Positions 29,788 through 63,530 of a stretch of DNA of 64,000 nucleotides are shown here, piece by piece. The notes under the pieces were generated by a model. The model searched no databases. It was not told the DNA's origin and saw only the letters and a program-made list of their open reading frames with translations. How positions within the stretch are numbered: position 1 is the first letter of the stretch; each line of letters begins with the position of its first letter. This DNA comes from Aradus depressus. Taxonomy: Eukaryota > Arthropoda > Insecta > Hemiptera > Aradidae. The position numbers and the translations under genes were made by a program. Location: the NCBI GenBank assembly GCA_963662175.1, contig OY759216.1, positions 51,911,087 through 51,975,086 of the forward strand. The letters are read 5' to 3'.

Positions 29788-32700
29788 TCATTCTTGTACA
29801 ATGGAGTATGGTTGTTGAGAATAATCTACTATCTCAGATTGTCCATGGTCGTAATCAGCCTCAAAGTCCAAACTCTCAAAGGATATATCTTCGAAGTCTT
29901 TTATTACAAATTCTTCCTTAATTTGTCGATTTTTTCTTTTATTGAATTTTTTTGGCAAATCAGCATTAGTTTGGTTTTTTTTCGATGCTTCACTAGCAGT
30001 GCCAACACGCTCTATTTCTTCGTCTGTGAACTTGTCATCGTATGTTGTATGTAGTGAGGCAGCCTGGCTGATATCCCCATGAAGCACGTTGTGGTCGTGT
30101 CCTTGCTGCAGTTTCCCATGATGGCCATGTCTGTGTCCATGCAGACCTTGGTGGTGGTGAACATGTTTCCCGAGGTTGATGTGTTTATGGTCATGTCCAT
30201 GTTCTCCATGATGCTTATGTTCATGTTGTCCACTTCCTTCATGTTTATGCTTATGATCCATATGCCCGTTGCTAAGGTGTCCATGTGAATGGTGCCCATG
30301 GTGATTATGGTCATGTGACTGACTCCCATGATGTCCATGTTTATGCTTTGTTGTGCCCCCATGTTTATGCCCATGAGCATGATGACCTTCATGTTTGTGA
30401 CTATGTTGACCGTGTCCACGATGTTTATGATCATTAAAATGGTGGCCCTTGTGTTTATGATCATGCTCAGTATGCCCCTGATGTTTGTGTTGGTGATGGG
30501 TATGTCCGTTGTGTTTATGACCGTGTCCTACCTGACCATTATGCTTATGTACATTTTTTGTGTGTCCTTCGTGTTTGTGTTTGTGCAGCGTATGGCCGTG
30601 GTGGCTGTGAGAGTGCATCGAGTCTCCGACGTGTTTGTGCCCATGTAAATGATCTGCTTCGTGCTTGTGGTGGTGTCCGGAATGGCCGAGGTGCTCGTGA
30701 CTGTGTTTTCCTTGGGCATTGTGGTTATGTTTGTGATCTGAATGTCCTAGATGATGATGCCCATGGCTTTGGTGACCAGCATGCTCGTGAGAATGTTTTC
30801 CTTGTGCATGATGCTTATGACCGTGAGAATGATCACCATGGTGTTTGTGTGAATGATGAGAACTTCCGAGATGCTTATGGCCATGATCTGCTAACCCAAC
30901 ATGTTTGTGTGAATGATGGGAATGTCCATAATGCTTATGACCATGCTCTGTACTTCCATGATGTAAATGCTTGTGATTGCCTTTGGCATGATGTTTATGC
31001 GAATGGTCAGAATGACCATGATGTTTGTGGCTATGATCAGCATTTAGATGGTGTTTATGGTGATGAGATCCGTGAGCTTGGTGTTTGTGTAAATGATGAG
31101 AATGCCCTTTGTGATCATGGCCATGTTCTGCATGCCCATGATGTTTGTGCCCATGGTCATGATGACCATGGTGTTTATGACTGTGATCCCCGTGCCCATG
31201 ATGGAGATGCTTATGCTGAGAATGCCCATGATGTTTATGTGAATGATCTGCTTCCCCAACATGCTTGTGGCCGTGTTTATGGTGACCATGATGTTTATGA
31301 CTGTGTTCAGCATGACCCTTGTGTTTGTGAGCATGAGATGCGTGGCCATGATGCTTATGTTTATGTTCAGCATGTCCATGATGTTTATGCTTGTGATGTG
31401 CATGACCGTCATGTTTATGTTTATGCAGACCCTTTCCCTGATGTTTGTGGTGATGCTCAGCTACTCCGTGATGTTTGTGCTTGTGTTCGCTAGAACCATG
31501 GTGTTTATGTTTGTGTTCCGATTTCCCATGGTGCTTATGAACGTGTTCCACCTTCCCTCCGTGGTGATGGTGATGGATTACTTTTCCTTTATGATGGTGA
31601 TCTGAGTCATCTTTCTTTTTGTCATCTTTGTGCACGATAACAGTATGTGTGTGTTTTATCTTCTTGATGATTTCAGGAACATAAAGAAGCATTTTTTTCC
31701 TGAAACAATTTATTTATAGTTAATATAGAATCATAACACTGGATTACTTTAAAAACACAGACAAGACTCAAGGAAACCATTTTTGTCATGATTATAAAAA
31801 TATCTCTATGCCTTGCATCACATCACGAAGACCCAATTAGCTAACAAAATCAAATATTAAAAAATTTTTTGGGAAAATCTACCACCTTCAATGTACCACG
31901 TTCAGAAAATCAGAACCTGCAAAATCTCTATTATTTCACAGATCATAGTAGGACATTAATTGAGTTTGTAGGCGAATTTCGGTTGTACAGATTATGATTG
32001 TACAGGATAAATTGGCTAAAGGAGGTAAAGTTGGATTAAGTCAATAAGCTTAGCTATGGCTGAAAATGAATGTTTATTTATTTCAACTCTAAATAAACCA
32101 AAATTTATTTAAGAATGAGTTACTGAGAAAATAAGGCTTTGCTTTTGAAGAAAATGATGAATATTTAGTTAACCAATGTAAAAATCCAACCACTGTTCAT
32201 TTGACCTTTGGCGCTTTTACCTTCGGTAGGAAATTATGAATAACCAATGTACTAAAGCCAATTATTAAACCTTTTATTATTAATATTCACATTATTTACT
32301 TAATATTTAAACATCTTATGCTTTATGTCTTTATTTCGTGTAATTTTACGTCCACAAGTAAACTTTTTTTCGTTTTTATTCTCATAATATAATTTATTAG
32401 CTCTGTAAGTCTGTCGTCCGCAGGGGAACTTGTTTTGTATATATATGTATAATTTTGTTTTGCTTTTTTTTTTTTTTCATTAAGAAGCCTCAGACTGACC
32501 ACTCTATACATATACAACAGAACACATCATAACGATTTCATGATACACACAGTACCCCAAACAATAAAAAACTGTGTAACCGCGACTTACTCCCACTTTG
32601 AATCATATTCGTTATTAATATTTTTCAACATTAATTTCCTTTACTTTTATTATCTCTCATTTACTACCCATCCATAAAAATTGTCTTCCTATTCCTTTTT

Positions 32701-33659
32701 ATTATTTTTTTGTCTTAATAATTAAGATACATGTTCGTCTCGAGGATCTACCACTGGGTGGCCTTCCTCTCACACGCCATTCACGCCACCATATCTACAT
32801 GTACATCATAGATGCTGGTTGTTGCACCCAGAAACAGTTGCATCTTTATAAATAGAAGTAAAAAAAAAAAAACTTTTTTTCTTTTTACCCTATCTTTCAT
32901 TTGATTCTATCTTGATTTCGAAAATTATATATTAGTATAGATGTATTAAAGGTTATTATTACTCATTAGAAACATTGTGAATTTTTGTTTTAAATTAACA
33001 TTGTCTAATTATATATTAGTATAGAGTTATTAAAGTTTATTACTCATTAGAAAACATTGTGCATTTTTGTTTTAAATTAACATTGCCTAATTATGTATTA
33101 GTGTTGAAGAATGTCATGAACAGAATGCTCCCAGTTGACATTTATTATTTGTCTTATTCCGTGTAATTCCTTTTGTCACATTCATCTTTAAGCGTTCAAC
33201 GGTCCTCTATGAAATTTTTGAAAAATTAGTTTTCTCCATTTTGAAGCTTATGTTTTTCAATGTTAATTTATTTTTTGCACAATTTTGAGATCAAAAATAA
33301 AAATAAATATATTTTTCTTTTCTTCGGTTGAGCAACTTGTCCGATTGATGGCGACTCTAGCAGAATTGTTTCATATTTTCGGCAAATCTTCCACATTCGG
33401 TTGGATTTCACTTCTCTTCTTCAGGTCACAATGACAAAAGGTGGACACCTCTGGTTAGATTTGCCGAAGATATAGAACATCATCCTATATAAGTCTAAGA
33501 AGCTCTCCAGCAAACTGCCATAAGCACGAGGGGTGTCATTAAAATGTATACTTACGGGGGTTGGGCATGAGCTGCACTATGATGTTCTTCCTTTTTTTTC
33601 TTCTTCTTCTTCCAGTCGAAGCCACTACTCGGTAAAACATGGATTATGATCAGAAAAAT
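29788..33659 (-). CDS. Histidine-rich repeat secreted protein A
   Basis: Exon 2 is 33556-33659 and exon 3 is 29788-31699 (TGA stop). Exon 2 encodes a hydrophobic IFLIIIHVLPSSG segment (signal peptide core), then a Lys/Glu stretch (DWKKKKKKKEEHHSAAHAQ). It ends with two bases that join exon 3 in frame to give PPKKMLLYVPEIIKKIKHTH. Then follow roughly 45-50 units of a 10-residue repeat, H-x-H-K-H-x-G-x-x-x, and a non-repetitive acidic/basic tail of about 100 residues ending YSIVQE. The repeats are far more diverged from one another than in B, C and D, so this may be the oldest copy or the least homogenised. At least 671 residues are visible. Exon 1 with the Met was not securely found: ATGTTC at 36592-36597 (followed by GTGACT) has the right phase, but its promoter context is weak. 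Predicted extracellular; metal binding is inferred from composition only. Confidence 0.85.
31700..32720. other. Gene A intron 2, AT-rich, no feature seen
   Basis: Intron between exons 33556-33659 and 29788-31699. Nothing beyond AT-rich DNA is supported in this part. Confidence 0.5.
32730..32875 (+). mobile_element. LINE 3' UTR fragment with A tail
   Basis: CTACCACTGGGTGGCCTTCC and TGCTGGTTGTTGCACC followed by an A-run resemble the 3' UTR of the jockey copy at 24890-25045. Confidence 0.5.
32920..33105. repeat. Tandem duplication of an ~86-bp unit
   Basis: TTATATATTAGTATAGA...CATTGTG...TTTTGTTTTAAATTAACATT occurs twice in a row, within gene A intron 2. Confidence 0.75.
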
Positions 33660-35185
33660 CTGGAAAAAAAATAAAAATATTTTCAACTATTATTATATTA
33701 AAATTTAGTAATATAAAAGCGTAGCCTGAGAGGGTATAAGGTTGGCAGCCCCTAAAAATGTAGCCTTCAAATTGTAATAATTGAAGATTTATTACTTCAA
33801 TGGATTAACAAGAGGTTAGAATTATCTATTAAAAACTATAGCTGTGTTTTTTATCCATATTGATAAGGATTAGACAGTGGCGTGACGAGGGTGTGTGTCA
33901 GTGTTGCCACATATTTCAGGGGCTGTCAAGAAGGATCTTACTTACTACTCTGCATAGTGTGCACCGGATTTCAAATATTTCTTTCGATGATGAAATGGAA
34001 GTCATTCATTAAAGCTTAATATGTGGTTATTGTTCACCAATTTTTATGGATTTGTCAGAAATCACTGATATGATACTTGGACTCAATTGATACAGACATA
34101 TCTATCACTAAATTGATTGGTACCAAAATCAATAACCCTTGATTTCTCACGGAAAGAATGGAGGAGGGGTTCACTTTTTTATTGTTGGTATTATCAATTT
34201 GGAAAAGGCTGACGCTGTTGGAAGTAGGTTGGTTTTCAGTTAACGCTGTTTAAAATATTCAAAACAGGCCCATTTCTGGGCTTTTTCCTTCCTTTTATAA
34301 CGTGATATCTCTGAGACGATGGTTTGAAAAAATTTTAAAAATATGTACTTTTGAATTCTCTCTAAATACAACTTATACTCAGGAAATGATAAAAACTGAG
34401 GCATGGAGATGAGACATTGCTTCTTTTGTCATGAAGTGCTTACATTAATTTTTACAGTCTATAACAATTGTCCAGTTATGTTTCAGTTTTTAACTAACTG
34501 GCTTTAATAAGTTGCTGACGAAAGACTCGCGAAGTCCTCACAGTCTTCCATTTGAAATATATACAATTTAAACAAATATTCATTAAATAATTGTGAGTTC
34601 TTAAAGATATTTGCATCCCGCTTTCATATTCATTTCCAACCTTACTCCAAATAAATATTCATCAACTTAATTCTCTGGTGTTTGGGCAAAAGGGCTTAAG
34701 TGAGAATAAGTATTGTGATCCAAAGGACTTAAGTGCATTTAAATATTTTTACCAAATGTAACTGATTGTTGGAATATTTTACTTTGTTTGTATTTAATAC
34801 TTTATAGAAATAATATTTCAAGGAACATAAATGTGTTTTACCTGATTTGCAGGAATTTTTCAAACCTTCAGAAATTCCCCTCCTAAAATTCAGATTTGCT
34901 GACTTAACCCCTTTCGCACAAACACCTGAGAATTATAATCAACAAAGCTTTTTGTTGACAATAGGAACAAAGTAAATTATTAGCATATTTCGGTCAATTT
35001 CCAAGGATTTCGTAAAATTTTCGTTCGTTAATTGAGGACTAAAATTCAAGACTTTACGACAACATTTCCATCTAGCGGCCAGCAGTGTTACTACAATTAT
35101 TTCATTATTCTAATAGAATTATTAAGTATTTCTGATTTATGTTGTGAATGTTCTTCCGGAACTGCGTTATCATAATGTTACAAAC

Positions 35186-35294
35186 TACTTTTACTAAGAC
35201 CCCTACTAAATCTGGGTAGAGTCGGGCTCATGTCCACCAGATGTACGAAAGAGATGGTAATAGGCGATATGACCTCATAGTTAAAGCCCAGGTA
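35186..35294 (+). mobile_element. SINE fragment
   Basis: GTCGGGCTCATGTCCACCAG through GATATGACCTCATAGTTAAA match the SINE 3' body. Confidence 0.65.
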
Positions 35295-35469
35295 TATAAT
35301 TCACAAGTCACTAAACATGCAAGGAAGGGGGTGGGGCTTTTTAAAATTCTAGCATTCAAGACACCCAAATGTCTTCAATGCACAATCTTAATATTTTTAC
35401 TACTGAAATCATTAAACGTAAATTTTATTGTGGCACTTGAACATATTTATACTACAAAAAAAATATATA

Positions 35470-35745
35470 TATATAAAATTCCCATTCGATACATTCATAA
35501 CAACGGCAGTTATTAGAGGTTTTGAGTTAAGCCCTCCCATTCTTTCTTTTGACCAATATGACTAAAAATTACGATATACTAAACTAATGTAATATAATAA
35601 ATAATATTATAATTACTAAATTAAAATGGCGAAGTTACGATACACATGTAGAATATCGTGTCGATACATTGAATCTATCGTGTACACGGACAGATTTTAT
35701 TTTTAATTTTTGATGAAGGGATTGGTAACATAAAATTCGTGTGAA
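35470..35745 (-). repeat. Copy of the dispersed subrepeat family
   Basis: AACGGCAGTTATTAGAGGTT and TCGTGTCGATACATTGAATC are family hallmarks. Confidence 0.5.
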
Positions 35746-36130
35746 AACTGAACATCGAATTTCTGACCGATTATATAAATTCACCTATAATTTGTATAGT
35801 TATACTATAAACACAAGTGTTGTCATGATTCGAAAATTCCTTTCTAGTAAAACGAAACATATCAAGTTTTCTCTCAGATATCTTTTAGATAAATTTCGAA
35901 ACTTCTCTACTTTGGAAAAATTATATTGAATATGTAAAAATAATCTTCAAGATGAGAAAGAAGCTCGGCCATGCGGTTGCGAGTTTTCAGGATACGTTTT
36001 TATTTTCATGCCAGACATTGTGCCACTGTTGGTTGTATATAATGTTTTTTTGTTATCTGAAATATGTTTTAATTATTAATAGGTGAGAACCTTCTCCTTA
36101 GAGACAGAAGAAAGCAGAGGCTCATTGGTC

Positions 36131-39321: not shown

Positions 39322-42300
39322 TCAGTATTTGGTTTCTTCCTCCTCTTTATTTTTTGATATTGGTTCTTCTGGTTTTTGTGATCTGTATGATTTGTCGGAT
39401 GCCTCGAAGTTAGGGATTTCGTCGTAGGCAGCAGCTTCGTCGTGGTGACCACCGCCACCGCTTCCATGCTCGTCTTTGTGCCCTCCATGTCCTCCATGAC
39501 TGTGGCCATGTCCAAAGTGGCCGCTGTGTTTGTGTCCGTGACCGTGATGTCCAGAATGTTTATGACCATGGCCAAACTCACCATGATGCTTGTGACCGTG
39601 TCCATGATGCCCTGAGTGCTTGTGCCCGTGGCTATGGTGACCTGAGTGTTTATGTCCATGCCCATGATGTCCAGAATGCTTGTGACCATGCCCGAAATGC
39701 CCACTGTGTTTGTGACCATGTCCATGGTGTCCTGAATGTTTGTGTCCATGACCAAAGTGTCCACCGTGTTTGTGGCCATGTCCAAAATCTCCATGATGCT
39801 TGTGTCCGTGTCCATGGTGGCCTGAGTGCTTATGCCCATGTCCCAAATGACCTCCGTGTTTGTGCCCATGTCCAAAGTCACCATGATGCTTATGACCATG
39901 TCCATGATGTCCAGAATGCTTGTGACCATGTCCGAAATGACCGCTGTGTTTGTGTCCATGACCGTGATGTCCAGAATGTTTATGACCATGTCCAAAGTCA
40001 CCATGATGCTTGTGACCGTGCCCATGATGCCCTGAGTGCTTGTGCCCGTGACCGAAGTGACCACCATGCTTGTGTCCATGACTATGATGCCCGTGGTGTT
40101 TGTGCCCATGCCCGAACTCTCCCCCATGCTTGTGACTGTGCCCATGGTGACCGCCATGTTTGTGACTGTGCTCCGCGTGGCCGCTGTGTTTATGTCCATG
40201 CTCGTGGTGCCCGCCATGCTTGTGACTGTGGTCTGCATGCCCCTTGTGCTTGTGTCCATGCTCGTGATGTCCATGATGTTTATGCACATGCTCCACGTGC
40301 CCTTTATGGATATGATGGTGGGTCACTGCTTCTGCTACGGTCAAGTCATTTGCATGCTCCCCTTTCGCATGGAGCACATCGTTTGTAACTCCATTTTTTC
40401 TGAAAAGAAATCCAATAATAATAATAATAGTATGAATGGTCATTCGTAGAAAGAAAAAACATAATAAAGTTATTGAAATGAGATTTTTTACATTGAGGCG
40501 GCTGTTTCGAGGTCGTTGATAATATTTGGCCTGAGATCAGCAATAGGAACGATTCCATTCTCTGGAATTACCTCTGCCAATCCCCCTCCAAGGAGGATGA
40601 GCAGTGCCGTGCAAGGGATTATCTGAAAAACAAATGGTTCATTAGAAAATTACCATAAGTTGTAACAATTAAATATGTTTTGTTGAGTAGTGAACTTTTT
40701 ACTTTCTATATTTTTAATGTGCCGACATAATTAATAGATTATTTAATTTTTCTTTTTACACAAATATTTGTTTTTGATTGTGTGATTTTAATGTTTTTCA
40801 TCTGTATTTATCATTTCAGTCAACGAGGAGATGTAAAAATGAATAAATATCTCAAATTAACAAGCAAGAAGGTAGAAGCAACTAATATGGGTTTTGGAGC
40901 TGTGTCGGAGATTAGTGTTTTGGAGCTAAGTCGGAGATCGACTGCTCGTCAATGTTTTGTTTATTTATTTTTGTTCTTTCTTTTGAGAAAGTTTTACCGG
41001 GGAATCACCAGCTAAAATTGTATGCAATAGACTTAGTTTCCGCTCTCCCTCTATACTACTTTTCCCCTTTGCGCTTGATTTAGGTTGAAAGCCAGTAGAT
41101 GTCTTACTTCTGGACTTCTGAATCATATAAATTTTCGTTTTGATGCATTCTTTCTATCTATCTAATCGTTTGGAGCTATGTCCCACTCTAATCCCCCCCC
41201 CCACCCCCCTTCCCTTTGACTGATTTGATTGAAAATCGATAGATGTTGTCTCCCTCGGCTTCTGAATTTCTTAATGAAATATATGTTAGGAGTTTTTAAT
41301 TTCACAGACATGAAATTTGAAGAGGACTAACAGAAAACTGGAGTCATACATGGATATCAAGCCCATAATTAGGAAATTTGCACCGAATCAATGGGAGTCA
41401 TTCTGGTAGAAAGAAATAGTCAAAAATTATAGTATGATAAATGACAAGGGGATGCTTTGGAAGACATGACGAGGTGGTGATCTGCTGGCTCCGTATTGGA
41501 CATACCCGGCTCACCTAATGGTTCTGAAGACCCTATATATTGTATTCAATCGCTAGGGACTTCATCTATAAACTCCCTTCTATTCTACCACTAATAAATT
41601 CCCCTTAAAGCCTCACTTTAATTTGTGGAACCTCCCGCAAATCATTAATCTTCTATAACATGCTAAAAAAAAAAGCTATAAAGTTATTAACGAGTATTTG
41701 ATTCTTATTGTTCTGTTCCGCGGACATCTTGGAACCTATCGAAGCTATGATGTAGACCGGACCTTAAATCAATGGCTCTAAAACAGTTGGGTAAAAAAAA
41801 ATTAAATACAATAAACGCAATATTTTTAAGTTAAAGAGAATAGTAAATCTCTTTCTATGGATCTAAGTTCTTACATATTATCTGTGGTCTGAATATAATT
41901 AACTTCATATAGTTTCATTGATTTTAATATTAAGATGACAGTAAAAGTCAACAATATATTATTTAGGTTTCTTATATCGAGTGAATAGAAACTTAAGTCC
42001 TTTCTTGAATTTATTAGTTATAGTCTAAATATTAATTCATAGAAAAATAGTAATTAAGAAAAAAAAGGTTTTCATAACCAAGTTCATTCATTTCCAGAAT
42101 GAAGGACAAAAAGACTGGAGCCTTTGTCCAGAGAGGGTTCGTCCTAGCAGCCCCCTCTCTGTATAATCAGTAAACTGACATGAAGAATTTTTGAAAATGA
42201 AATCAGGAAATGGAACAATCACCCTTACAAAAAAAATGGAAAAATCCTAGTTAATAGTTAATTTATTACATAAAATGATGATGCTTTTGTTGCCTCCGTT

Positions 42301-43921
42301 CAGTAGCCTAGTAGAAAATAAAATTCAAAGGGCTGACTATTTAAAAATAATAAAGAACCTAAACAAAGGCAGATTATTTTTTTCTTTTCAGCAGCAATTT
42401 GTTTTTTTTAGATTATTCGGAATAATTTAGTTTTTGCAGTTTATTTATTACATAAGAATATTACCAAGTTTGTAAAAAAAAGTTTATTTGAAATTACTGT
42501 TGCTTTTTCGTTTTTTATTTATATATTATTTTGAAATAAATACTTGTTTTCTAAAAAAAAGTTTTTCAATTCACTTTATTTATGTTATATTATCGTAAAT
42601 ATTTAAATTTCATGTATAAAGGACCAACAGATGTATTAAAACTAGCTAGCTTCCCTGAATTTCAAGTTTCAGATATAATAAATAATCCGTTATAAGAAAG
42701 AAATACTACCTACTGATCCCTTGGAGGCTCTTATGAACGATTTCTACTGTATATAGAAATTTATAATTGCGTAATTAATATATTTCTAACAATATAATTA
42801 CTAGAGATAACAAGTCTCATGGCTAAGTTCTTCTGAGATATCTCGGATGATGTGGCTACGTTTTCAACAACAGCTTCTAATACAATTATTAAAAATGTAT
42901 TGTAGTAGTGTCTGAATGGAATGTTAAATTAGAAACATTAATTTCACTACTTAAAAGAAAAAATTGGAACTAAAATCCTCAAAACAAAAAATTCCACAAA
43001 AACCCAAATCTCTGTCTATGTGTGTCAGTGTGCGTATCTGCAGACACGATCGCTCCCGAATGAATGAATGGACCCGAACCATTTACTTATGGGTTCAGAA
43101 GTTCATAAGAAAACTCCTATCGTCATTCAGCCACTCAGTCAAGGAAAAAAGAATGGCTTTAGAGGGAGAGCGAAAACTTACAAACAACATGGGCTGGGGA
43201 AGTACATTGTTGCTCATTTCATATGGGAAGTTAAGTACAAATGTAAGGGTGCCTGGGAAAAAGTCCAAAAATCTGAAATGGGTATTTTCGAAATACCATT
43301 CATAGAAAAAAATAAGAATATATTTTTTCTTCGGGCTTAAAGAGCACAAAACCATGATATTTTAAACAATTTGAGTACCTAATATTCCACTTTCCAGCCA
43401 GAAAGTCTGGGGCCCTTTTAAACCGGATCTTCGTGTTATCCTCCCAGGAGTGTGTAAACAAATCGCATTCAAATTTAATTGTAAGAAAACATCCTAATTT
43501 ACTGCTTATAAAGGGGGGGGGGGACATAACTTGTTATAAGTCTTTCAGTTATCTGCCAGCGCTCTTTCAAGTGGAACTTCTCGTCTTCATTTTTTAAGTT
43601 TTGTTTATAATGTAAAAACAATTTTCAAAAGTAGTGATGCATGTTGGGAAAAACTTTTCTCTCAAAATAAATCAAAGTGGACCTATCGCATGTCGTTGGA
43701 AAGCCAAAGAATTGAAAAAAAAAAATATTTCGTGTTTTTGAGGTCGAAATAAATAAAGATATATTTTTCTTCCGAAATATAAGAAATGTTTTGTATCATA
43801 AAATCCCTTGAAAAAATGTTTCGCTTTTTTCTTTTCTTGTTTTTTTGTTTCTATAATTTTTAACTGTTGTTATAAATTGAAGTATTGTAAATAGAGTGAG
43901 GAGTTAGGTACTTACGTTCAT
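39322..43921 (-). CDS. Histidine-rich repeat secreted protein B
   Basis: Three exons: 43916-43921 (ATG AAC, then GTAAGT), 40492-40622 and 39322-40399, giving 404 residues. Exon 2 supplies the signal peptide MN-IIPCTALLILLGGGLAE and a short mature spacer (VIPENG... to DLETAAS). Exon 3 begins KNGVTNDVLH, reaches the conserved entry AEAVTHHHIHKGHVEHVHKH, then about 25-30 decapeptides that alternate as GHKHSGHHGH and GHKHHGDFGH, i.e. a 60-bp higher-order DNA repeat. The tail is GGHKDEHGSGGGGHH, then an acidic stretch ending EEEETKY. Intron 1 is 3.3 kb and intron 2 is 92 bp. A TATA-like box and CAGT initiator lie upstream of exon 1 and a TTTATT (AATAAA on this strand) lies at 39229. The long antisense Met/Val frames over this exon are composition artefacts. 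Confidence 0.92.
40623..43915. other. Intron 1 of gene B
   Basis: 3.3 kb. Holds copies of the dispersed subrepeat family at about 41030-41300 and 42990-43215 (the latter including GGGCTGGGGAAGTACATTG), a CCCCCCCC run near 41200, and otherwise AT-rich DNA. Confidence 0.55.
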
Positions 43922-43941
43922 GTTGACATTTCCAACACTCC

Positions 43942-43974
43942 ACTGGCTGATCACTCTCCATCTCTCATTATATA
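43942..43974 (-). promoter_or_regulatory. Core promoter of gene B (TATA box and initiator)
   Basis: On the minus strand TATATAA begins at 43974, and CCAGT with its A at 43944 lies 30 bp downstream. That is the normal TATA-to-start spacing. The inferred 5' UTR to the ATG at 43921 is about 23 bases. Confidence 0.6.
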
Positions 43975-45762: not shown

Positions 45763-48700
45763 TCACAAAGTCACTTGGACGTCGAAATGTTTTTCAAATC
45801 TTTTTTCGTCTTGGCTGGGCGTTATTATTGTTTTCTGTTTGTCAGCCTCATGCTGCTGTTCTTTGTCAGTGAAGTAGAGAGGATGGAAGTGGGCCAAGTC
45901 ACCTGGCTGGGACGCAGCCGCTACTGTCTTAGCGTTCTCTTTCCTTTCGACCAGATGAGCCCTCAACTCGTGGCTCCGGCCGAAGCTGGCTTCGTGGTGC
46001 TCCTCAAAACCACTGTCATCATGTTCATCTTTGTGACCGCCACCACCGTCTCCATGGGTGTGACCATGGCCAAAACCACCATGGTGCTTGTGACTATGTC
46101 CATGCTGACCATGGTGTTTGTGACCATGTTCAACATGCCCCTCGTGTTTGTGTCCATGCTCTTGATGCCCATGATGCTTATGTCCATGGCTCTGATGGCC
46201 AGAATGTTTGTGGTCATGTCCATGGTGTCCTTCGTGCTTGTGACCATGTCCCATGTTTCCATGGTGTTTATGTCCATGATCATGATGCCCGGAATGTTTA
46301 TGCCCATGTCCCATGTGACCACCATGTTTATGTCCGTGTTCTATATCGCCATGATGCTTGTGGCCGTGTCCATGATGTCCATGATGCTTATGTCCGTGAC
46401 CTATTTCACCATCATGTTTGTGTCCATGCCCAATATCGCCATGGTGCTTATGACCATGGCCATGGTGCCCATGATGCTTGTGACCATGTCCAATGTCACC
46501 GTGGTGCTTATGCCCGTGTCCATGATGTCCCTTGTGCTTATGACCATGTCCGACTTCTCCGTGGTGCTTGTGACCATGTTCATGATGACCATGATGTTTG
46601 TGCCCATGTCCAACTTTCCCATGATGCTTGTGCCCATGGCCATGATGCCCGTGATGTTTGTGCCCGTGGCCCATGTGTCCTTCATGTTTGTGCCCGTGCC
46701 CATGATGACCATGGTGCTTGTGGCTGTGCTCCGAGTGGCCTTGGTGTTTATGACCGTGCCCATGATGCCCACTGTGCTTGTGCCCATGCCCGTGATGCCC
46801 ATGATGGCCGTGCTTGTGCCCATGCTGCCCGTGGTGCTTGTGATGGTGCTCCACCTGCCCCTTGTGGATGTGATGGTGTATCACGGCCTCTGCTGTTTCA
46901 AGATCCTCCACATCTCCCTTTAGGTACTTATTACCAGAAGCCTCTCTTTCCTTCCCTGCTGTAGTTATCTCTTCACCTTCCCTGCACAGAAATATATTTA
47001 TGAGAAAACAGGATGAAACTATAATTGACAGATACAGATACAGATTCAAGAAACCTACTTTAATGACGTAGCTCCAATATTTGTCAGATAAAGTTGGACC
47101 TTAGGTTCCTCCTCCGGCTCTGGGGTGACCTTATTTATCAAAATCACCTTAGCAAGTCCCAGGTTCAGAAGAAGGATCAGTGGAGTCAAGAAGAACGACT
47201 GACACAAAGAGAAAATGGAATTAGTCAATCTAAAACACTATGTCTCGATACTCACATGCATATTATTGTGACGTAATGTACGTCGGAAAATACTCCCCTT
47301 AATATTATTACTTCTTCAGATACGCGAAGAGTAGGGGATGTTACGTAATTGGTTAGACATTCAATGTTGAGTTCTAAAGTTTTCCGATCCATTGAATCCA
47401 AAAATGAAAACAAAATTTTTTGCATGTCTGTCAACATTTTAACTCCGGATAGAATGAATTTTTATTTGTAAATTCAAAATCAGATAAAGACGACACATAT
47501 TTGGGTATGGGTTCTCGTAATTATAATGCATCAATCCATTGGTATCGGCCTTTTTCGTTTAGTTCACTAAAACTGATTTATTTAAATGAATATAACAGAA
47601 AAGGAGTTATAAAAATTCAAAAAATATAAAAAAATAAATTGCGGCGAAAAAAATTAGGTAAATCCCCTCCTAAAATCGAACTTTTGGGTAGTTTTTTTAG
47701 AGTATAACATAAAACTGTTAATAAATTTCCTTCTATTTAGTCAAATTTTAGAAATGTATATGGTAGTTGTAACACTTACAACAAGCATATTTCGCCGCAA
47801 TTTATTTTTGTATATTTTTGGAATTTTTATAACTTCTTTTCTCTACACCAGAGGGCATAACTTACATGCCATTGTTTCAATCCTAATCTAAATCGTACAA
47901 AAAGTCAACGCTCATTTAAAATGTTTTTAGAAACTCTATGGGGGAATCAGCACTATTAAGTTGTATTATCTTCTCTCCAGAGATGGGGTACGCAAACTGG
48001 TAGAAACTTTTCCCATTCTTATTTATATTCAGAGTTTCATTCAGATCAATCATTGGGAAGTCTATCAAAAACAATCTCAAAAGTATGACAGTGAGACGTT
48101 TCTGCGCAACAAAACTTTAGTTTTCAAGATGATTCACAAATATGTAAATTTTTTTAAATTTTCTTATTCCTATATTATAAGAAATTATTATAATCGTGCG
48201 AAAATCGATGATGGAGTTTTCAATGGGTGCGATGCTGCAGACTGTGATTGAAACTGTGAGCGCACGATTTTAGCTATCAACTTGAAATTTTAAATGAAGG
48301 TGACACATATATTAGATTAGATCTATAAATATATTTAAAAAAACATTTACACTTTTTATTTAAAAAAAAAAATAGAGTATAAGAGTTAGATAATTAGTTA
48401 TTGTGGCTTACTCTAATTACAAGATCATATTGCTCTGATGGACATAAGCCCGACTCTACTGTCCCTAGAGTTGGTCTTTAATGAGTAGGTACCTGATATA
48501 GTACAGGCTCAGGACCAGCGCTTAACATCCCATCCGAAGGACGGCATGTTCAACGTTGTTTACCTCGCAAATAAAAAAATGTTAGAGCCTCGGCCGGGTT
48601 TCGAACCCGCGATCTTGAGCTAAGTAGGCAAGCATGCTCTGAGTTACCCCCTCTACAGTATAACATCTCTTCTCAAAACTGGCAAAGTTTCTAATAAGAT

Positions 48701-50601
48701 TATCTTATTGGTTCATTTGGAAAAAAATAAAAATTAAAACTTTTTGAAGAGTTTAATACGGTTAATTTTCAACTTTTGCACGCTATAACTAGTCGTATCA
48801 TTTTTTAAATAATTGTTTAATCTCGTTCAATATTTCATCATGAATCTGTTTTATAATAACGTCAACCTTTTTTGAAAAACAAAAAGTATACTAGATGACA
48901 TGAAACTTAAATCATGATCTTGGAAGGTCACTTCATCGCAATTCAATTGTAGTCTCAGCCAAAAATCTCAAAGTAAACAAAAGTTACTTCTATCTATCCA
49001 ATTGCTTTTTTTTCTTTTCTTATTTTTTTTCCTTTTTTGTTACACTCTTTAATCCAATATTAGACGTTTATTTTTTTTTTAAGTTCATGTTTATTTTTAA
49101 AAATTCAATTCTTGAAAGAGATCAAGGAAACAAAGTTAAAAGCCATGTAAAAAGCAACTATAACAAAAATGAGCTGGAACAATAATTCTTTCCCGTAAAA
49201 CTAAACATTTCAAGTTTTCCCCAGCTTTTCTTTTAGAGAAATTTCTCAGCATCTAACTATAATGCATTTAACTATGAGGTTATATCGCCCACTACCAGAG
49301 TGCTCTTTCCTTGCTCTATTGGATATGAGTCCGTCTCTGAGGGATCATAAACTTTGCCTAGGTTTAGTTATCATCGCTTAAATTTGTTCCAAGTTTAATA
49401 AAAAAATAAAATATATGTGATGTGGCCATTACAGGACTTTCTTATACCAAACCTCTTCTTTGAGGCGCTATAACTTTGGTCGTTTTGATTCTATCTCACA
49501 TCTGAGGACTTATAACCGATTGGAAATATAAGAAGGAACATTTTTGATAAGAGACAATTTTACGATAGGACTAACCGTTTTCGGGTAAATCAAGGAAACG
49601 TCTAAAAATATGTTTCGAAACTACATTTCAGAACGATTATCGGCATGTATATAAAAAACTGGAAGATCTACAAAAAATTGTATTTCATATAAAATATGTA
49701 TTTTAGTTTTTTCTACAACTTTTTAACCTAAAGATTTTTGATTAGGTCATAAACGTAAGCGTTCGTTATATTGTAAAATGTACTTAGACCCCAAAGTGAT
49801 CTCAATTTTCGTCCGATTTGGGCCCAAATCTAATCAGATCTAAGTTAGCACATGTGACCTCTTCATTCCACATTTCCAGTTCATAGCTACAATCGGTTTG
49901 CGGTAGAGCGCTCACAACTTTCCAATCACATACACACATATACGAAAATGGTCAACACATATTCAAGGGACCTTGAAACGTAAAAATCCGTTGAAATTTC
50001 GATCTCGGATTTTTGCAATACTTCCTTATACTATAGGTATAAGAAAGTAAAAATATATTCTTCAGCAATTACATATACACCATTACTGCTGAGAGACGTA
50101 GGAAATCTATGATGATTGTTAGACTGGACAGTATCTTTAGAGTGTTGAGGGAAGTCGAGGTACTGTTGTGTAGGGTGGGGTCATGTAAATAAAGAACTTT
50201 AGAACGGCCCTACAAGGACTTAAGAGGATGTGACATCATCACAAACACTTACCACCTTTACCACAAACATCCACTCAAGTCATTATAAGGCCCTGAAGAA
50301 GGAAATAAATACTTTCCAATACATTAGCCAAATACTGAGATTTTTATTTACATGACAGATTCTTGACTTCCCTGATCATCGGAAATCGATGTTTTTGTAA
50401 CAGATGATAGGATGAGGAACCGCTTGGCCACGCGCTGTCTGATATTTTCTGGATTGGCTTTGTTTATTCCAATAAATTTGTTCCGAAAATGTGAGGCAAA
50501 TTTATTGCCACCAGATCTGAGATGTGAGGATTGAGGACTTTGAGGTTGATTTGCGATGTATGTAGTTATGTATGGTATAATATGTATGTACTTACTTTCA
50601 T
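45763..50601 (-). CDS. Histidine-rich repeat secreted protein C
   Basis: Three exons: 50596-50601 (ATG AAA, then GTAAGT), 47059-47198 and 45763-46981, giving 454 residues. Exon 2 encodes the signal peptide (MK-SFFLTPLILLLNLGLA) and a spacer with PEPEEEP. Exon 3 starts EGEEITTAGKEREASGNK, then DLETAEAVIHHHIHKGQ, then about 25 decapeptides such as GHKHHGHHGH and GHKHHGDIGH. The tail is the longest of B-D (about 90 residues, GGGGHKDEHDDSGFEEHHEA to FDVQVTL) and has no His repeat. Phase at each junction matches genes B and D. Intron 1 is 3.4 kb. An alternative start, ATGCAT followed by GTGAGT at 47251-47261, would need only a 57-bp intron; I prefer the 50.6-kb exon because it has a TATA box and initiator. 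Confidence 0.9.
47325..47530 (+). repeat. Copy of the dispersed subrepeat family (head)
   Basis: GGGGATGTTACGTAATTGGT and AACTCCGGATAGAATGAAT are the left-end hallmarks. In gene C intron 1. Confidence 0.55.
48392..48652 (-). mobile_element. SINE copy
   Basis: Box B TCGGCCGGGTTTCGAACCCG in reverse and body remnants; head partly lost. In gene C intron 1. Confidence 0.7.
49268..49375 (-). mobile_element. SINE fragment
   Basis: AGAGTGCTCTTTCCTTGCTC and neighbouring bases match the reversed SINE body. Confidence 0.55.
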
Positions 50602-50646
50602 CCTAAGAAGTCCATGGATATCCGATCTCCGACTGACTGACTGTCA

Positions 50647-50682
50647 ACTGACATTGGATCTCGACCCTGCCTTCCTATTTAT
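50647..50682 (-). promoter_or_regulatory. Core promoter of gene C (TATA box and TCAGT initiator)
   Basis: ATAAATAG runs from 50682 to 50675 on the minus strand. The arthropod initiator TCAGT lies at 50651-50647 (A at 50649), about 33 bp downstream. It precedes the short first exon ending ATGAAA at 50596. Confidence 0.65.
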
Positions 50683-57732: not shown

Positions 57733-57957
57733 GTTCTGTCGGGTAAATGAAAAACTCAGTATTTGGTCAACGTTTCGGAAACTATTTATTTCCTTCTTCA
57801 GGGCCTTAAAATGACGAGTGGATGTATGTGGTGAAGGTCGTAATCACAAATACTTACCACACACATCAACTCAAGTCATTGCAAGGCTCTGAAGTAGAAA
57901 ATAAATATTTTCCGAAAAGTTGGCCTTATACTGAGTTTTTTATTTACAAGACAGAAC
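57733..57957. mobile_element. Foldback MITE with ~110-bp arms
   Basis: Ends GTTCTGTC...GACAGAAC. Each arm carries CCTTCTTCAGGGCCTTA-like sequence. Single arms occur at 23015 and 50265. Confidence 0.7.
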
Positions 57958-58142
57958 AGCAGTTGAAGTGGAACACACATTTTCCCAAGAACAACTTCCG
58001 ATTAACAGGAGAAAAAAGTTTTTCAGGGCATTTGTCATCATCTACTATTAGGAACTCAATGATTTTATAAAATCTGAAAAAAAAAAAAAAAAAAATTAAA
58101 TAGAGTTGTAGTTTGGGGTGAATGCAGAAGCTGTTAACTTAC

Positions 58143-58393
58143 ACAAATCGACTAAAATGGTTCGTACAACGTTGTTGGACATCTTCATTTTGAATCTGTG
58201 TTCTTCCTTTGTAACTCTATGTGCTCCATGAATGAAATCTTCCTTGTGAAGTTTGGGGTTCAACCTCACGGTCCATTCGTTTAGTGTGTGCCAATCGTGC
58301 CTCAATAGATGAACCATGAACTCGGTTTTGTTTCTGAATGGTTCTGTTCTAACCAATGGCATGTTAGACAATTTTTCCAGGCCCCCGATTGTT
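58143..58393 (-). CDS. Unidentified protein-coding exon head-to-head with gene D
   Basis: A 251-base open stretch lies between an acceptor (TTTCCACTACTTAG) and a GTAAGT donor on the minus strand. It encodes about 83 residues, starting TIGGLEKLSNMPLVRTEP, continuing through HDWHTLNEWTVRLNPKLH and ending NNVVRTILVDLC. The residue mix is that of an ordinary soluble protein with no low complexity. I do not recognise the family. Its edge lies about 190 bp before the gene D start site. It may be an internal exon of a neighbouring gene or part of a mobile element; no partner exon was located. Confidence 0.45.
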
Positions 58394-58498
58394 CTAAGTA
58401 GTGGAAATGATAGATTAATGATCAGTCAAATGAGGTCAGATCCGAGTTTGGTTTGGGGAGGTCTGGTTATTAGGCTGATTAGCTCCATAACCTGGAGA

Positions 58499-58525
58499 GG
58501 GGGGGGGGGGGGGGGGGGGGGGGGG
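58499..58525 (+). repeat. 27-base G run just upstream of the gene D TATA box
   Basis: Uninterrupted G run ending 27 bp before ATAAATAG at 58553. The length may be inexact in the assembly. Confidence 0.85.
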
Positions 58526-58552
58526 TTCGGTGATCTAATAGTTAAAACAACA

Positions 58553-58586
58553 ATAAATAGATCCGTTACTCTAAGATTTTGTCAGT
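58553..58586 (+). promoter_or_regulatory. Core promoter of gene D (TATA box and TCAGT initiator)
   Basis: ATAAATAG at 58553-58560 and TCAGT at 58582-58586 are spaced 31 bp apart (A to A). The predicted 5' UTR is about 34 bases before the ATG at 58618. The same arrangement is found at gene C. Confidence 0.65.
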
Positions 58587-58617
58587 TGGTTACCAAGCAG
58601 CATCCCATGTCGGAAAC

Positions 58618-61600
58618 ATGAAGGTAAGTTCGTTTTCAAAAATTTACTTTCATTAAAAAAAAAAAACGAAAAATTGAGTATTTATTAAATTTCTAAACTG
58701 TTCAAAATGATCTAGGAAACAAAACATTTTTTTTAGAATATCTCTGTTGCATATGCAAAATTAAGTTTAAAAAAGAAATTTCACTTTTAAAAACTTTTCA
58801 TTTTAATTATTTTTTTCAAATGAAAACTAAACAATGGTACTTCTGTGATATTGAAAAGTTACAAAAAAAAGGAATATTGTGCATGTCCTTATGCATTAGG
58901 CAACACTGTTAATTGTTGGAGGTGTTGTTTCCATGGTCTCAGGACATTTGACATTTTCGAAGTGTGGGACAGAATGCCTTCCGTATGATGATTGAGTCTT
59001 CTCTGGAGCGAACGTACAGAATGGGTTTAGGGTTGAGAGATTGTTGATTCATTCCATCACTGCACGAGCCATGTGCAAGTGTAAGTTGTCCAGCAACAAG
59101 TCAGGGCCGAAATATGGACAGAGGTCGCAAAACTTGCTCCAAGTACTGGATGGTTCTGTTCTATGAGGAAGAACTCTCTTCGGATCTGCCCAGTCCATGG
59201 TCGTGCCAACTCTAGGGTTCAGACTGTCACCATACCCCCGTTCTGCGGGGCAGTTAGGATGGAAACCGAATCTTGACTCAGCTGTGAACAAGATACTACC
59301 CCATTGCTGTTCTTCTGCCCATGCTGAACGTTCTGTTGCTGTAACTCTCGTGTTACGTCGTGCCTGCTGTACCGTAGATCTGTTCTGTCGTGGGGTGGTA
59401 ACTCTTCCTAGGCTAAGTTGTATTTCAGCCAAATCATCTGTGTCCTGGTAGGTAACGCTCCTATAAACGGCATATGACCTACTCCTTGACGACAGTTTGA
59501 CTCCAAACCCGGCCCTTACTTTTCTGCCGCTCTAAGCAAGCTCAGACGTATTTTTTGGTAACATTTTTTGAATAGATTAAAATTTGTGATTTGTATGAAG
59601 AAATAAAATAAAATATTCTCAATATTATTTTTAAAAAACATTTAGAGGCCCTAATTCCACTGAGAATTATTGGTGTTCTGAAGTTAAGCCCCCAGCTACT
59701 CCTAAACATCCTCTTCTCTTCGATCGATATGGCTGAAAATCAATAGGTATATTAATAATGGACTACCTACTGAATCCACATACATTTGGATTCAATATGC
59801 TCATTTTATTGCAAGATATTAATGCGATCCTGGGAAATTTGAAAACGGAATGGGACTTGTACATAGTAAATTATCTTTCAAAATTTTATCGTAACAGCAT
59901 TAATAATTTTAACTTCAAACAATAATATAGGAGACTGTAACGTTCCTAGTGGTAGGTTTACTTCTTCAGTGGTACCTAATATAGGGGAGGTTATGTACTG
60001 GGTAGAGGTTCCATGTGGAGTTTTCTTCAGAACTTCACATTTTCTAAGAGGGCGCCGGTAGCTCAGTGATATGCGTGCTTGACTTCTGGGGACGAACGTG
60101 GGTTCGAAACCCGACCGAGGCCCTTAGTTTATTTTTATCTGGTAGGTAAAATAAACTTGAGCATGCAGCCCTTCGGATGAGACGTTAAGCGATGGTCCCG
60201 AGCCTGTACAATGTCAGGTACTCGTTAAAGACCCCTAACCTAGGTGAATAAAAATTTAGGGTAGTCAAAATTTAGGACTCCCACAGTAGAGTAGGGCTCA
60301 TGTCCACCAGAGTGACGAAAGAGCGCTCTGGTAGTAGGCGATATGATCTCGTAGTTAAAGCCCGGGCATGAGTCATAAAACCTAACCTAACCTCTACACG
60401 TGATTTATTATGTGGGTCCAGAATCATATAAGGACGATATCTATTTGTTTTCAGTCAAATGAGAGGGGGGAGGGGGCTCATCTCTATAACACTGATGTGT
60501 TACGTTGATACGTTGCTGCTACTACTCAGGTACGTCAGGCCCTGGCAACGTTCAGTTAACGTTCAGTTAACGTTTCCAAAACGGATCTGAAAAATGGAGC
60601 CTCCCCGTTCTAGTTATACAATTATCTCAACATTCACTCATCTGATTCTAAGGTCAAAATTATAATTGCCAATGTAAAGAATTTGTGGATAGAAATATAG
60701 GAGGATTGAGAAGGCCCTGAGTAGGACACCTATTGTTCTTCAGCCAAATCGATCGGTTGTTTCTAGAGGGAGAGCACAAACTTAGTTGATCAACTCCCGC
60801 TGGGGAATTACAAGGCTGGCGATTCACCGTCGACTTCTTATAAGGCTGGCGATTCACCAATTGACTTCTTGTAAGGCTGGCGGTTCACCGTCGACTTCTT
60901 ATAAGGCTGGCGATTCACCATCGACTTCTTATAAGGCTGGCGGTTCACTGTCGACTTTTTATAAGGCTGGCGATTCACCATCGACTTCTTATAAGAAGCG
61001 ATTACTATGAAAAAAGTTCGGTGAATCATTGCTTTTACCGATTACTGAGTTTTCTCTCTCCCTCTACAACCAATCTCTCGATTAAACTGAAAATCAAAAT
61101 ATGTCTTGTTCAGGGACCTCATCGTCTCCATATAAAATTTCGTGTCGATACATTCATTACACCCGGGCTCCCGCTTCTTCTAATCTTCCTCTTCCTTTGA
61201 CACAGTTTTTTTTATTTCTTTGGATTAAAGGTTTGGAAAACGATGTACCTATGTGTTATAGATTGTTTAATTCAGGTTACCATATAAAAACGTTATATTT
61301 TTTTATGTTTTGTCTTTTGTAAGGCACTTGTGGGGACAACGTTACTACTACTGCTCAGAGAGCTACTGGCTGGAGTAGTTCCAGATGGAGGAGGACTGCT
61401 AAAACACGAGCCTCAAATATTGGTTAATGTTTCTCAAACAGATCTGAAGAATGCAGCCTCCCAGTAAGTTGAAGTTATACACACAATTATCTCAATTTTC
61501 GCACATCTACTAACATCATATGATAGTATAATTAAAATATTGAGCACATTGTCTTGTTCAGAATAAATCAAAAAATTAAAATTCTTTGACCCCAATTCGA

Positions 61601-63530
61601 ACAATTTGGGCGCTATGACACATGGGCTCAACACTTGACTAATAGTTTCTAAATCTAAATAAAGAGAGAAATATTTTTCGATTGGCTCTTTCTACGCCAA
61701 CCGGATACTCTGAAGCGCTCCTAGCGATAGTTCTTGTAAAAATTAATGATTAAGAGTATCTCTACCTAGCGAGAATGCCATGAACTACATTCCCATTACG
61801 ACATAAAAGGCCCATTTTCCCTTAATCCCTGTTATACTAATGTCAAAATAATATATTTTTTAGAACAATCGATGTTTTCAAATCTCCGACTGGATTCAGT
61901 CCAACGAATATAAAGGAAGATGATACAACGACTCAAACCAAGTAAAAGTTATTTTTTTAATCATTCTATGGCTTGGTGCAAGAAATTCTTAAATCCATAT
62001 TTATATAAAGTTAGATTTCGTCATTGGCATTACTTGTATATATAATATACATATGTTTTCGATTTCAATACGTTATAACTAAACTCAACACTTTAGGCGA
62101 GAATCTGACATTGTCACTTCTTGCTTCAAAGCGCATAATTTATTTATGTTTTTCATGCTAAGACATTTAAACTAGCTTATGTTAGGTCCTGATAGGCAGG
62201 ATACGAAGGCATTTGTCTTATAGTTCTAAAAATATCTGTCATTTATTAGGGGAAAACGTTGTTTGTGATGTTTTTTGGGCTGTTGGTAGATGCTTTGCTA
62301 ATCTATCTAATGGACTAGGTTTCACCTCACAGATTGTAGTTACAATGATATGAAATTTTATTTATTTCTATTCTTCTGTATTTTAGAAACAATTCAGATA
62401 CTTCTACATCTGAATCTCTCCTCAGCTTTAGAATACCTGGATTAAATCCAAGTGAGGATATCTCAGAGTATGTGTCATTTCAATGATATAATTAATTCGT
62501 TTTCAAGGAGCATAAATGTTGATCGATTTTTTTTTTTTTTTTTAGATATCCGACAATCGTAACGGCTGCCAAAAAACAGCTAGATCTTAAAGGAAACCTG
62601 AAAGGAGAGCCGGGAGACGATCTGAAAGGTTCTGAAGCAGTGACACATCATCACATCCATAAGGGTAAAGTAGAGCATCATCACAAGCATCACGGAGAAT
62701 CAGAGCACAAACACTCGCACAAAGGACATGGGAGTCACAAACACAAACATAGCGGACACCACGGACATGGACACAAACACAGCGGTCACTATGGGCATGG
62801 ACACAAGCACAGTGGGCATCATGGGCACGGTCATAAACATCATGGGGAGATAGGACATGGACACAAACATAAAGGCCACCATGGTCATGGGCATAAGCAT
62901 GGAGGCCACTTCGGGCATGGGCACAAACACTCGGGGCATCATGGTCATGGGCACAAACATCACGGAGACTTTGGCCATGGTCATAAACATTCGGGTCATC
63001 ATGGGCACGGGCACAAGCACTCCGGTCATCATAGCCACGGGCATAAGCACTCTGGTCATCATGGTCACGGTCATAAACATCATGGTGATTTTGGACATGG
63101 GCATAAACATGGGGGTCATTTTGGGCACGGGCATAAACATCATGGACACCACGGACATGGTCACAAACATCATGGAGATTTTGGACATGGGCATAAACAT
63201 GGGGGTCATTTTGGGCACGGGCATAAACATCACGGACACCACGGACATGGTCACAAGCACCATGGACATCATGGTCATGGTCACAAGCATCATGGGCATC
63301 ATGAACACGGGCACAAACATTCTGGCCATCATGGACACGGTCATAAGCACCATGGACATCACGGCCATGGGCACAAACACCATGGTGAATTTGGGCATGG
63401 GCATAAGCACCATGGACATCACGGGCATGGGCACAAACATGGGGGCCACTTTGGGCACGGCCACCACCACAAAGGACACGGAGGTAAACATAAAGATGAA
63501 GCTTATGCTGATGGAGATTGGATTTTTTGA
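58618..63530 (+). CDS. Histidine-rich repeat secreted protein D (inverted paralogue with two extra exons)
   Basis: Five exons: 58618-58623 (ATG AAG, then GTAAGT), 61324-61463, 61864-61941, 62387-62467 and 62546-63530, giving 429 residues. Exon 2 is the signal-peptide exon (MK-ALVGTTLLLLLRELLAG, then VVPDGGG..., ending KNAAS). It aligns with gene B exon 2 (VIPENG ... TAAS). Exons 3 and 4 (78 and 81 bases, both entering and leaving in the same phase) encode Ser/Thr/Asp-rich spacers, with FKSPTGFSPTNIKEDD in the first and FRIPGLNPSEDIS in the second. They could be skipped without frame loss. The last exon reaches GSEAVTHHHIHKGKVEHHHK, then about 25 decapeptides with the 60-bp higher-order pattern, and a very short tail (GGKHKDEAYADGDWIF). 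No close AATAAA was seen after the stop. Confidence 0.9.
58990..59520 (-). pseudogene. Tc1/mariner-type transposase relic in gene D intron 1
   Basis: The minus frame at 59049-59432 contains TVQQARRNTRVTATERSAWA, SILFTAESRFGFHPNC and LLLDNLHLHMARAVME. These correspond to the pre-catalytic region, the first catalytic Asp block (here TAESRF instead of S-D-ESRF) and the LLDNAHPH block of Tc1 transposases. It is shortened and lacks the last Glu region. Confidence 0.7.
60049..60394 (+). mobile_element. Full-length SINE with CCTAA tail
   Basis: GGGCGCCGGTAGCTCAGTGA head, box B GGTTCGAAACCC, complete body, tail CCTAACCTAACC. In gene D intron 1, between parts of a subrepeat-family element (59985-60048 and 60405-60490). 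Confidence 0.9.
60505..60650 (+). pseudogene. Relic duplicate of gene D exon 2 (signal-peptide exon) inside intron 1
   Basis: The stretch matches the exon at 61324-61463 and its following intron in order. TTGCTGCTACTACTCAGG parallels TTACTACTACTGCTCAGA. GTTAACGTTTCCAAAACGGA with the GATCTGAAAAATGGAGCC after it parallels GTTAATGTTTCTCAAACAGA. TATACAATTATCTCAA continues the match into the intron. The GTAAGT donor is lost and the frame is broken, so it is a dead tandem exon duplicate. Confidence 0.7.
60811..60998. repeat. Minisatellite, six ~30-bp units
   Basis: ATAAGGCTGGCGATTCACCA plus TCGACTTCTT repeats about six times with small changes. Because the unit is 30 bp both strands stay open, but no start or splice context suggests coding. 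Confidence 0.85.
61020..61205 (-). repeat. Fragment of the dispersed subrepeat family
   Basis: GATTAAACTGAAAATCAAAA and TCGTGTCGATACATTCATTA just before gene D exon 2. Confidence 0.5.

Follow-up and report, generated by a model that had tools for sequence, protein, structure and literature searches.

Histidine-rich extracellular proteins that set with metal or pH are already known. Cephalopod histidine-rich beak proteins bring His/Gly repeats into a hard mouthpart, and kininogen domain 5 and histidine-rich glycoprotein, which belong to plasma proteins with cystatin domains, bind Zn and heparin. Among worms, the nereid protein Nai11527 is His/Gly-rich, has a signal peptide and occurs in the Zn-rich jaw tips (PMC13120676; here and below, statements on cited papers and on the open-access literature refer to the portions of text at hand). 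In Zn/Mn-hardened insect cuticle the metal is thought to sit largely on histidine, and these sources name a His-rich protein of known sequence in worms and none in arthropods (PMC8410824, PMC13120676). In this study, a window of 64,000 nucleotides (nt) from the hemipteran Aradus depressus (Aradidae; contig OY759216.1, positions 51,911,087 to 51,975,086) was analysed, which carries four His-repeat genes, A to D, at 29.8-63.5 kb; three of them (A, B and C) are read from the minus strand and one (D) from the plus strand. The final exon of each encodes a long array of His-rich decapeptides, located where the original prediction, made from the letters alone, had put it. What is new is this decapeptide, the conserved array length and the hemipteran range.

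The likeness to the known systems is partial. At E 0.1, Pfam returned 0 families with the whole of B, with the A, C and D repeat exons and with four relatives. Thus kininogen, whose literature contains the string GHGHKH, and histidine-rich glycoprotein differ from A-D in their cystatin-like domains, and the ZIP/ZnT transporters, which have HxHxH clusters in His-rich loops, differ in that A-D show no Pfam transporter domain and, leaders aside, no long hydrophobic stretch by eye. The conserved cysteines of microplusin/hebraein are absent from A-D. Cephalopod beak proteins are built from GHGxY-type pentapeptides with Tyr, whereas Tyr makes up 0.7-0.9% of A-D; the term for these proteins occurs in PMC9716703. 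Nereid Nvjp-1/Nai11527 resemble B, C and D in the signal peptide or leader and the His/Gly-rich composition, and they come as several similar transcripts, but Nai11527 is an annelid protein with 16% His and 29% Gly, likened here by leader and composition, and the decapeptide HxHKHxG is not described in the portion of that paper at hand (PMC13120676). No annelid jaw protein was among the names shown in the 24 profile matches reported below, most of which are unnamed. No description of such a hemipteran family was found in the open-access literature, a scope outside which most subscription papers lie, and the earlier statement that no insect family with this repeat had been described held up there.

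Decapeptide arrays and their hemipteran relatives

The repeats follow the pattern xxHxHxHxGx, which is the predicted HxHKHxGxxx read in another register; position 6 is often K. When units with at least 2 of their three His were counted, 50 were in register in A, 29 in B and 28 each in C and D; the span from the first to the last HxHxH is 485 amino acids (aa) in A, while B, C and D all have a span of exactly 275 aa. His accounts for 43.3% of the array in A, 45.8% in B, 47.3% in C and 48.4% in D, so that "a third or more", as it had been put, understated a share of 43-48%; in the precursor models it is 31-34% (A counted without its start exon). B, C and D share the array entry V(T/I)HHHIHKGxVEH; the entry of A is VIHHHHHGGKVEH, the variant that had been noticed before. 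A fifth array was not found in the window by tblastn with all four proteins or by a scan for His-dense frames.

Comparison of units within each array (lags 1-3 units) gave a match of 0.52-0.80 for amino acids and 0.60-0.89 at codon positions 1/2, and 0.35-0.47 at position 3. Conservation is thus confined to the first two codon positions, the third being close to random, so the silent sites have drifted while His and Gly were retained. In an alignment of 22 pieces of eight units, to which A contributed 48 units in six non-overlapping pieces and B, C and D 24 units each in three, 21 of the 24 His columns were invariant and 2 more reached at least 90%, as did all eight Gly columns; a sliding-window alignment was discarded, since its overlapping pieces aligned through their overlap. 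By these patterns the arrays are an old, constrained protein rather than young satellite DNA.

The arrays of B, C and D were then compared unit by unit. Nucleotide identity of units at equal positions was 0.725 for B-C, 0.769 for B-D and 0.727 for C-D, with shuffled means of 0.649, 0.662 and 0.654, respectively, and 0 of 10000 shuffles as high for any pair. For these pairs, offset 0 was the best from -6 to +6, all others being lower. When position 1 of the unit was scored as hydrophobic (F, I, V, M, L, Y, W, A) or not, all three genes agreed in 24 of 28 units; this was reached in 0 of 20000 shuffles and, among 784 circular shifts, by the unshifted arrangement only. Third-position identity at equal places was 0.446 (B-C), 0.496 (B-D) and 0.454 (C-D) against about 0.39-0.40 after shuffling, with 304, 2 and 112 of 10000 shuffles, respectively, as high as the observed value. 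This comparison was used in place of synonymous divergence (dS), which was not computable because the silent differences lie beyond the correction limit, and the proportion of synonymous differences (pS) is inflated by the two-fold His codons. With third positions barely above chance, the duplications that gave B, C and D are old. Given that the three are collinear over 28 units, the array predates these duplications, and its number of units has on balance stayed the same. Tandem arrays normally gain and lose units, so the constant 28-unit length in three paralogues seems to be itself under selection. To keep the exact array length and unit pattern in three paralogues whose silent sites are near random is unusual.

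When gene C was the only query against the protein database, none of the 7995 proteins scored reached E 0.001, although for a database of that size the paralogues score about 1e-38 to 1e-90. A control query with the neighbouring SLC17-type gene, for which 235 of 8000 scored proteins reached E 0.001, showed good insect coverage of this database. Since a profile built from all four genes did reach relatives, we regard the blank with C as a limit of sensitivity and not as orphan status. The profile gave 24 matches at E 10 among 7994 scored, and seven were kept as relatives: P0121 from Nilaparvata lugens (E 5.7e-51), P0122 from Homalodisca vitripennis (hypothetical protein J6590_018848, E 3.7e-17), and the unnamed proteins P0123 and P0126-P0129 (E 5.4e-10 to 6.8e-7). 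P0121 carries the label "putative uncharacterized protein DDB_G0282133", which looks like an automatic and uninformative name. Two Paenibacillus records were dropped, the sirohydrochlorin chelatase P0124, which has a His-rich tail, and P0125, named precorrin methyltransferase; so was P0130, which matches PF15070 and has His-rich runs. Another 14 matches at E 1.7 or worse were set aside, 13 of which share a Pfam accession set including PF13649, which we take to be methyltransferase models. A protein labelled "DDB_G0282133" from Laodelphax ova (PMC4899684; record 662197467, one peptide, 0.6% coverage) could not be tied to P0121 and was not used.

The decapeptide register is kept in all seven relatives, with 34 units in register in P0121, 12 in P0122 and 9-11 in P0123 and P0126-P0129, compared with 50 in A. 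Ahead of a VIHHHHH-like entry, six of the seven have a lead of the type [KT]-[HR]-T-V/I-Y, or close to it, similar to that of A (KHTHTVIV): KHVHTVYV in P0121, KHTHTVYK in P0122, KHTIYK in P0127 and P0129, THTIYK in P0128 and TRTVYK in P0123, while P0126 starts past that point. In phmmer searches against A, P0121 and P0122 scored highest among the seven. These two resemble A in the lead (KH-T/V-HTVY), in the entry (VIH-H/K-HHH or HIH) and in the register, and differ from it in their tails and number of units; the array of P0121 is Lys-rich (31%). P0123 and P0126-P0129 have a common tail ending near YxVTE, and their N-terminal ends fall within the lead or shortly ahead of it, as though the models covered the last exon alone, which suggests that the intron ahead of the repeat exon is old. 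B, C and D do not have the A-type lead and keep only the entry motif. Since the lead is common to A and six of the relatives and missing in B-D, A looks like the conserved member of the family, and B, C and D look like derived, old local duplicates with fixed 28-unit arrays. The original prediction had counted on conserved orthologues with secreted, tissue-specific expression for support, and its conservation part stands with the hemipteran relatives in N. lugens and H. vitripennis.

Proposed function and alternative readings

The leaders indicate that the A-D proteins are probably secreted. In exon 2 of B, C and D an 18-residue hydrophobic leader with Ala at its end was read by eye. The signal peptide predicted for every gene is thus likely in these three, whereas A has a hydrophobic leader whose start codon was not found. 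P0121 contains an internal leader, MSFYHHVLLLLLVAGVPVTC (by eye), which supports secretion too. The earlier description of a secreted, multi-gene His-repeat family of an insect is supported. We favour the reading, with a probability of about 0.5, that this is a hemipteran family of secreted structural proteins forming a metal- or pH-assembled extracellular material, with hardened cuticle as the likeliest site.

The gene structures (as sequence models), register, constraint, collinearity and relatives are results of the analysis; the metal and pH behaviour, the stacking of strands and the tissue are what we infer. After removal of the signal peptide, the protein would be mostly a row of His-rich decapeptides. 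In an extended unit, H-x-H-x-H would place three His on one face, and the near-invariant Gly could form the turn into the next unit. AlphaFold placed 14 strands at ten-residue spacing between residues 45 and 179 of the C repeat exon (mean pLDDT, the predicted local distance difference test, 47.0; block means 53-67 over residues 41 to 160) and seven strands in the eight units of an 80-residue piece of A (mean pLDDT 55.5), which suggests one extended strand per decapeptide as a working idea. The calculated net charge of the precursor models, with generic pKa values, falls from +133 to +244 at pH 5 to +5 to +35 at pH 7.5. In the acid, metal-free state the chain would thus be strongly positive and soluble. 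Deprotonation of His at about pH 6-7, or a meeting with Zn, Cu, Ni or Mn, would act as the trigger; metal would load onto the His rows, with some of it bridging units and molecules, and the strands would stack into a dense extracellular material. Metal binding or assembly near pH 6-7, as originally predicted, fits this sequence.

As for the site, hardened cuticle such as that of the piercing stylets or ovipositor would come first, and salivary or other gland secretion next. In the ant tooth, more than 1/4 of all residues in the protein, probably the His, are likely to bind Zn, and His makes up about 27% of a worm jaw protein (PMC8410824). Cicada mandible tips contain Mn and Zn, and Mn in seed bug stylets is cited (PMC9953083). 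By analogy, a secreted family with 31-34% His would fit the needs of Zn/Mn-hardened cuticle.

Several results weigh against this reading. The confidence of both AlphaFold models is low, no strand was predicted in C past residue 179, and Foldseek against the PDB gave no significant fold match (best E 5.0 and 1.9); solenoid-like matches to GlmU, bactofilin and an ice-binding protein were not significant and were left unused. With the C repeat exon as the only query, no sequence match in the PDB was found at E 1 either. Pfam found no chitin-binding or cuticle domain in full-length B or the repeat exons of A, C and D. Many hardened proteins have cross-linking residues of the Cys/Tyr/Trp type. In A-D each of these makes up at most 0.9% (Cys count: A 0, B 1 in the leader, C 0, D 0), so residues for such cross-links are nearly absent. 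It has also been argued that the Zn of Zn-rich tools is for the most part held by one His together with water, multi-His links being minor (PMC8410824), so bridging may not be the main effect. The unit-by-unit pattern also has its exceptions: strict alternation at position 1 reaches significance in B alone (p 0.001; C 0.08, D 0.24, A 0.81), two neighbouring units of C are irregularly spaced (8, then 12) with the net length unchanged, and the units of A cannot be clearly matched by position to those of B, C and D (best mean 0.61 at any offset 0-20). No acceptable start exon for A was found in three scans up to 39.3 kb. Finally, the two dropped Paenibacillus enzymes scored 1.6e-9 and 1.1e-8 in the same profile list; profile E values are thus inflated by composition, and kinship rests on the lead, as sequence shared outside the repeat, and on the register.

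Among the alternatives, a salivary protein that is released into plant or prey, where it would build or line the stylet sheath or bind metals and phenolics of the host's defence, would be the first to turn to, although we consider it improbable. Both named relatives (N. lugens, H. vitripennis) come from sap feeders, and the diverged tails and local duplication seen here are common in salivary genes. However, no salivary paper naming such a protein turned up in the open-access literature, and a fixed array length and pattern suits a structural element better than a fast-evolving effector.

Somewhat less likely still is sequestration of dietary Zn, Cu or haem in the gut, Malpighian tubule or haemolymph, with Plasmodium HRP-II and vertebrate histidine-rich glycoprotein as functional likenesses. 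It would account for the extreme His content and the leader, but haem is unlikely as a common ligand because the named relatives feed on plant sap, and more than 100 His per molecule in a fixed pattern would seem beyond the needs of a soluble buffer. A paper on Rhodnius haem crystals uses the term histidine-rich protein 5 times (PMC2734994). Equally doubtful is a role as egg coat, as glue from the accessory glands or as a silk-like secretion, with stacked beta sheets formed by 8-residue strands and Gly turns; the predicted strand-turn alternation each 10 residues and a 20-residue super-period in B agree with it, whereas the structure models are low-confidence and A-D are not rich in Ala, Ser and Tyr, unlike many silks and chorions.

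We hold a role in antimicrobial or nutritional immunity to be very unlikely. Here the proteins would starve microbes of Zn/Cu or damage membranes when protonated, after the manner of histatins, tick microplusin and kininogen domain 5. The strong positive charge at pH 5-6 and the string GHGHKH, which occurs in 8 papers, 3 of them naming kininogen in the title or the abstract and one of these 3 dealing with antifungal peptides of domain 5, speak for it; A-D are, however, far longer than typical antimicrobial peptides and do not have the microplusin-type Cys frame. Minisatellite DNA left open by chance, as the tandem repeats with 30/60/90/120-bp periods might suggest, is nearly excluded by scrambled third positions with His and Gly retained, splice phases common to the genes, collinear paralogous arrays with no net gain or loss of units, and relatives in other insects.

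Gene models and neighbouring features

As models read from the sequence, B, C and D are complete, with a start exon, a signal-peptide exon and a repeat exon (Table 1). They have a minimal first coding exon, and a phase-0 intron after codon 2 splits the signal peptide; no paper on an intron inside a signal peptide was found in the open-access literature. A phase-2 intron precedes the repeat exon in all four genes, and A has the same layout of leader exon and repeat exon.

Table 1 Exons of the four genes and other features of the window
Feature	Position	Strand	Description
A leader exon	33556..33659	-	104 nt; hydrophobic leader IFLIIIHVLPSSG, then Lys/His-rich
A repeat exon	29788..31699	-	conserved lead KHTHTVIV..., 50 decapeptides in register, 110-aa tail
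B exon 1	43916..43921	-	ATGAAC then gtaagt; TATATAA at 43974; CCAGT 25 nt upstream of ATG
B exon 2	40492..40622	-	signal peptide and further segment; weak donor gtaaaaaa
B exon 3	39322..40399	-	29 decapeptides in register, 57-aa tail
B upstream open reading frame	43918-43929	-	ATG at -8
C exon 1	50596..50601	-	ATGAAA then gtaagt; ATAAATA at 50682; TCAGT 50 nt upstream of ATG
C exon 2	47059..47198	-	signal peptide; donor gtaggttt
C exon 3	45763..46981	-	28 decapeptides, 96-aa tail
C upstream open reading frame	50598-50615	-	ATG at -14
D exon 1	58618..58623	+	ATGAAG then gtaagt; ATAAATA at 58553; TCAGT 36 nt upstream of ATG
D exon 2	61324..61463	+	signal peptide
D exon 3	61864..61941	+	78 nt; phase 2 kept
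D exon 4	62387..62467	+	81 nt; phase 2 kept
D exon 5	62546..63530	+	28 decapeptides, 19-aa tail
D upstream open reading frame	58607-58621	+	ATG at -11
D tail and stop	63470-63530	+	another frame open across the stop
Run of 27 G	58499-58525	+	about 27 nt upstream of the D TATA-like site
30-bp tandem repeat	60808-60995	+	6.2 copies, within the first intron of D
SLC17-type gene	about 14867-28167	+	sialin / inorganic phosphate cotransporter type; multi-exon; 1.6 kb between its end and that of A
DDE transposase fragment	9711-9986	-	PF13359 DDE_Tnp_4, E 3.5e-6
tRNA-like repeated element	60050-60370	+	common 3' part (by eye)
tRNA-like repeated element	about 48650-48400	-	common 3' part (by eye)
tRNA-like repeated element	about 52600	+	common 3' part (by eye)

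The leader exon of A is bounded by the acceptor ttccag and the donor gtaagtat, and its 3' end is in phase 2. A start candidate at 34005 (20 codons, donor GTAAGT, fitting phase) was rejected, as it adds a 20-residue stretch ahead of the leader. A TATA/initiator-like site at 35777 was also rejected as the A promoter, there being by eye no usable donor behind it; the TATA plus initiator pattern alone is weak evidence, with 37 matches in the window (overlapping ones counted). With both strands of the window counted, there are 3 copies of the sequence ATGAANGTAAGT, compared with 0.07 expected under a first-order Markov model, one upstream of each of B, C and D, and a looser pattern gives the same three places only. 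Poly(A) signals follow the stop at +87 nt in B, +284 to +298 nt in C and +546 nt in A; none was seen for D in the 470 nt remaining to the window end.

The upstream open reading frames of B, C and D are 3-5 codons long, and their TGA overlaps the main start as ATGA; they possibly reflect shared translational control or inheritance from one ancestor. The tail of D is short compared with those of A, B and C, and its early stop may be real or an assembly base.

Beside the cluster, the hand-joined exons of the SLC17-type gene had their best named matches, among the best 120 of 235 proteins, in Rhodnius prolixus (48%), Nesidiocoris tenuis (46%) and Cimex lectularius (46%); the top ranks went to unnamed proteins (48 and 47%), and one exon matches Pfam MFS_1 (1.4e-14). 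DDE_Tnp_4 is presumably PIF/Harbinger-like. The tRNA-like elements are probably short interspersed nuclear elements (SINEs).

Possible implications for metal-hardened cuticle

Returning to the favoured reading of a secreted, metal- or pH-assembled structural family, a bolder form of it is that hemipteran-wide, fixed-length "histidine-ladder" proteins make up the Zn/Mn-taking matrix of stylet and ovipositor cuticle, each molecule being a rod of set length. We offer this as a tentative proposal that is rather unlikely in its full form. If it is true, the constant 28-unit array with its unit-by-unit pattern would mean that the molecule folds or stacks into such a rod, and an insect protein for metal-hardened cuticle would be at hand, which would explain how more than 1/4 of the residues can serve as metal ligands. 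If the biochemistry holds, the arrays would offer a natural design for pH- or metal-setting materials. With a secreted hemipteran family of 31-34% His, the question of what holds the metal in insect cuticle becomes testable through a named gene of a planthopper that is well studied.

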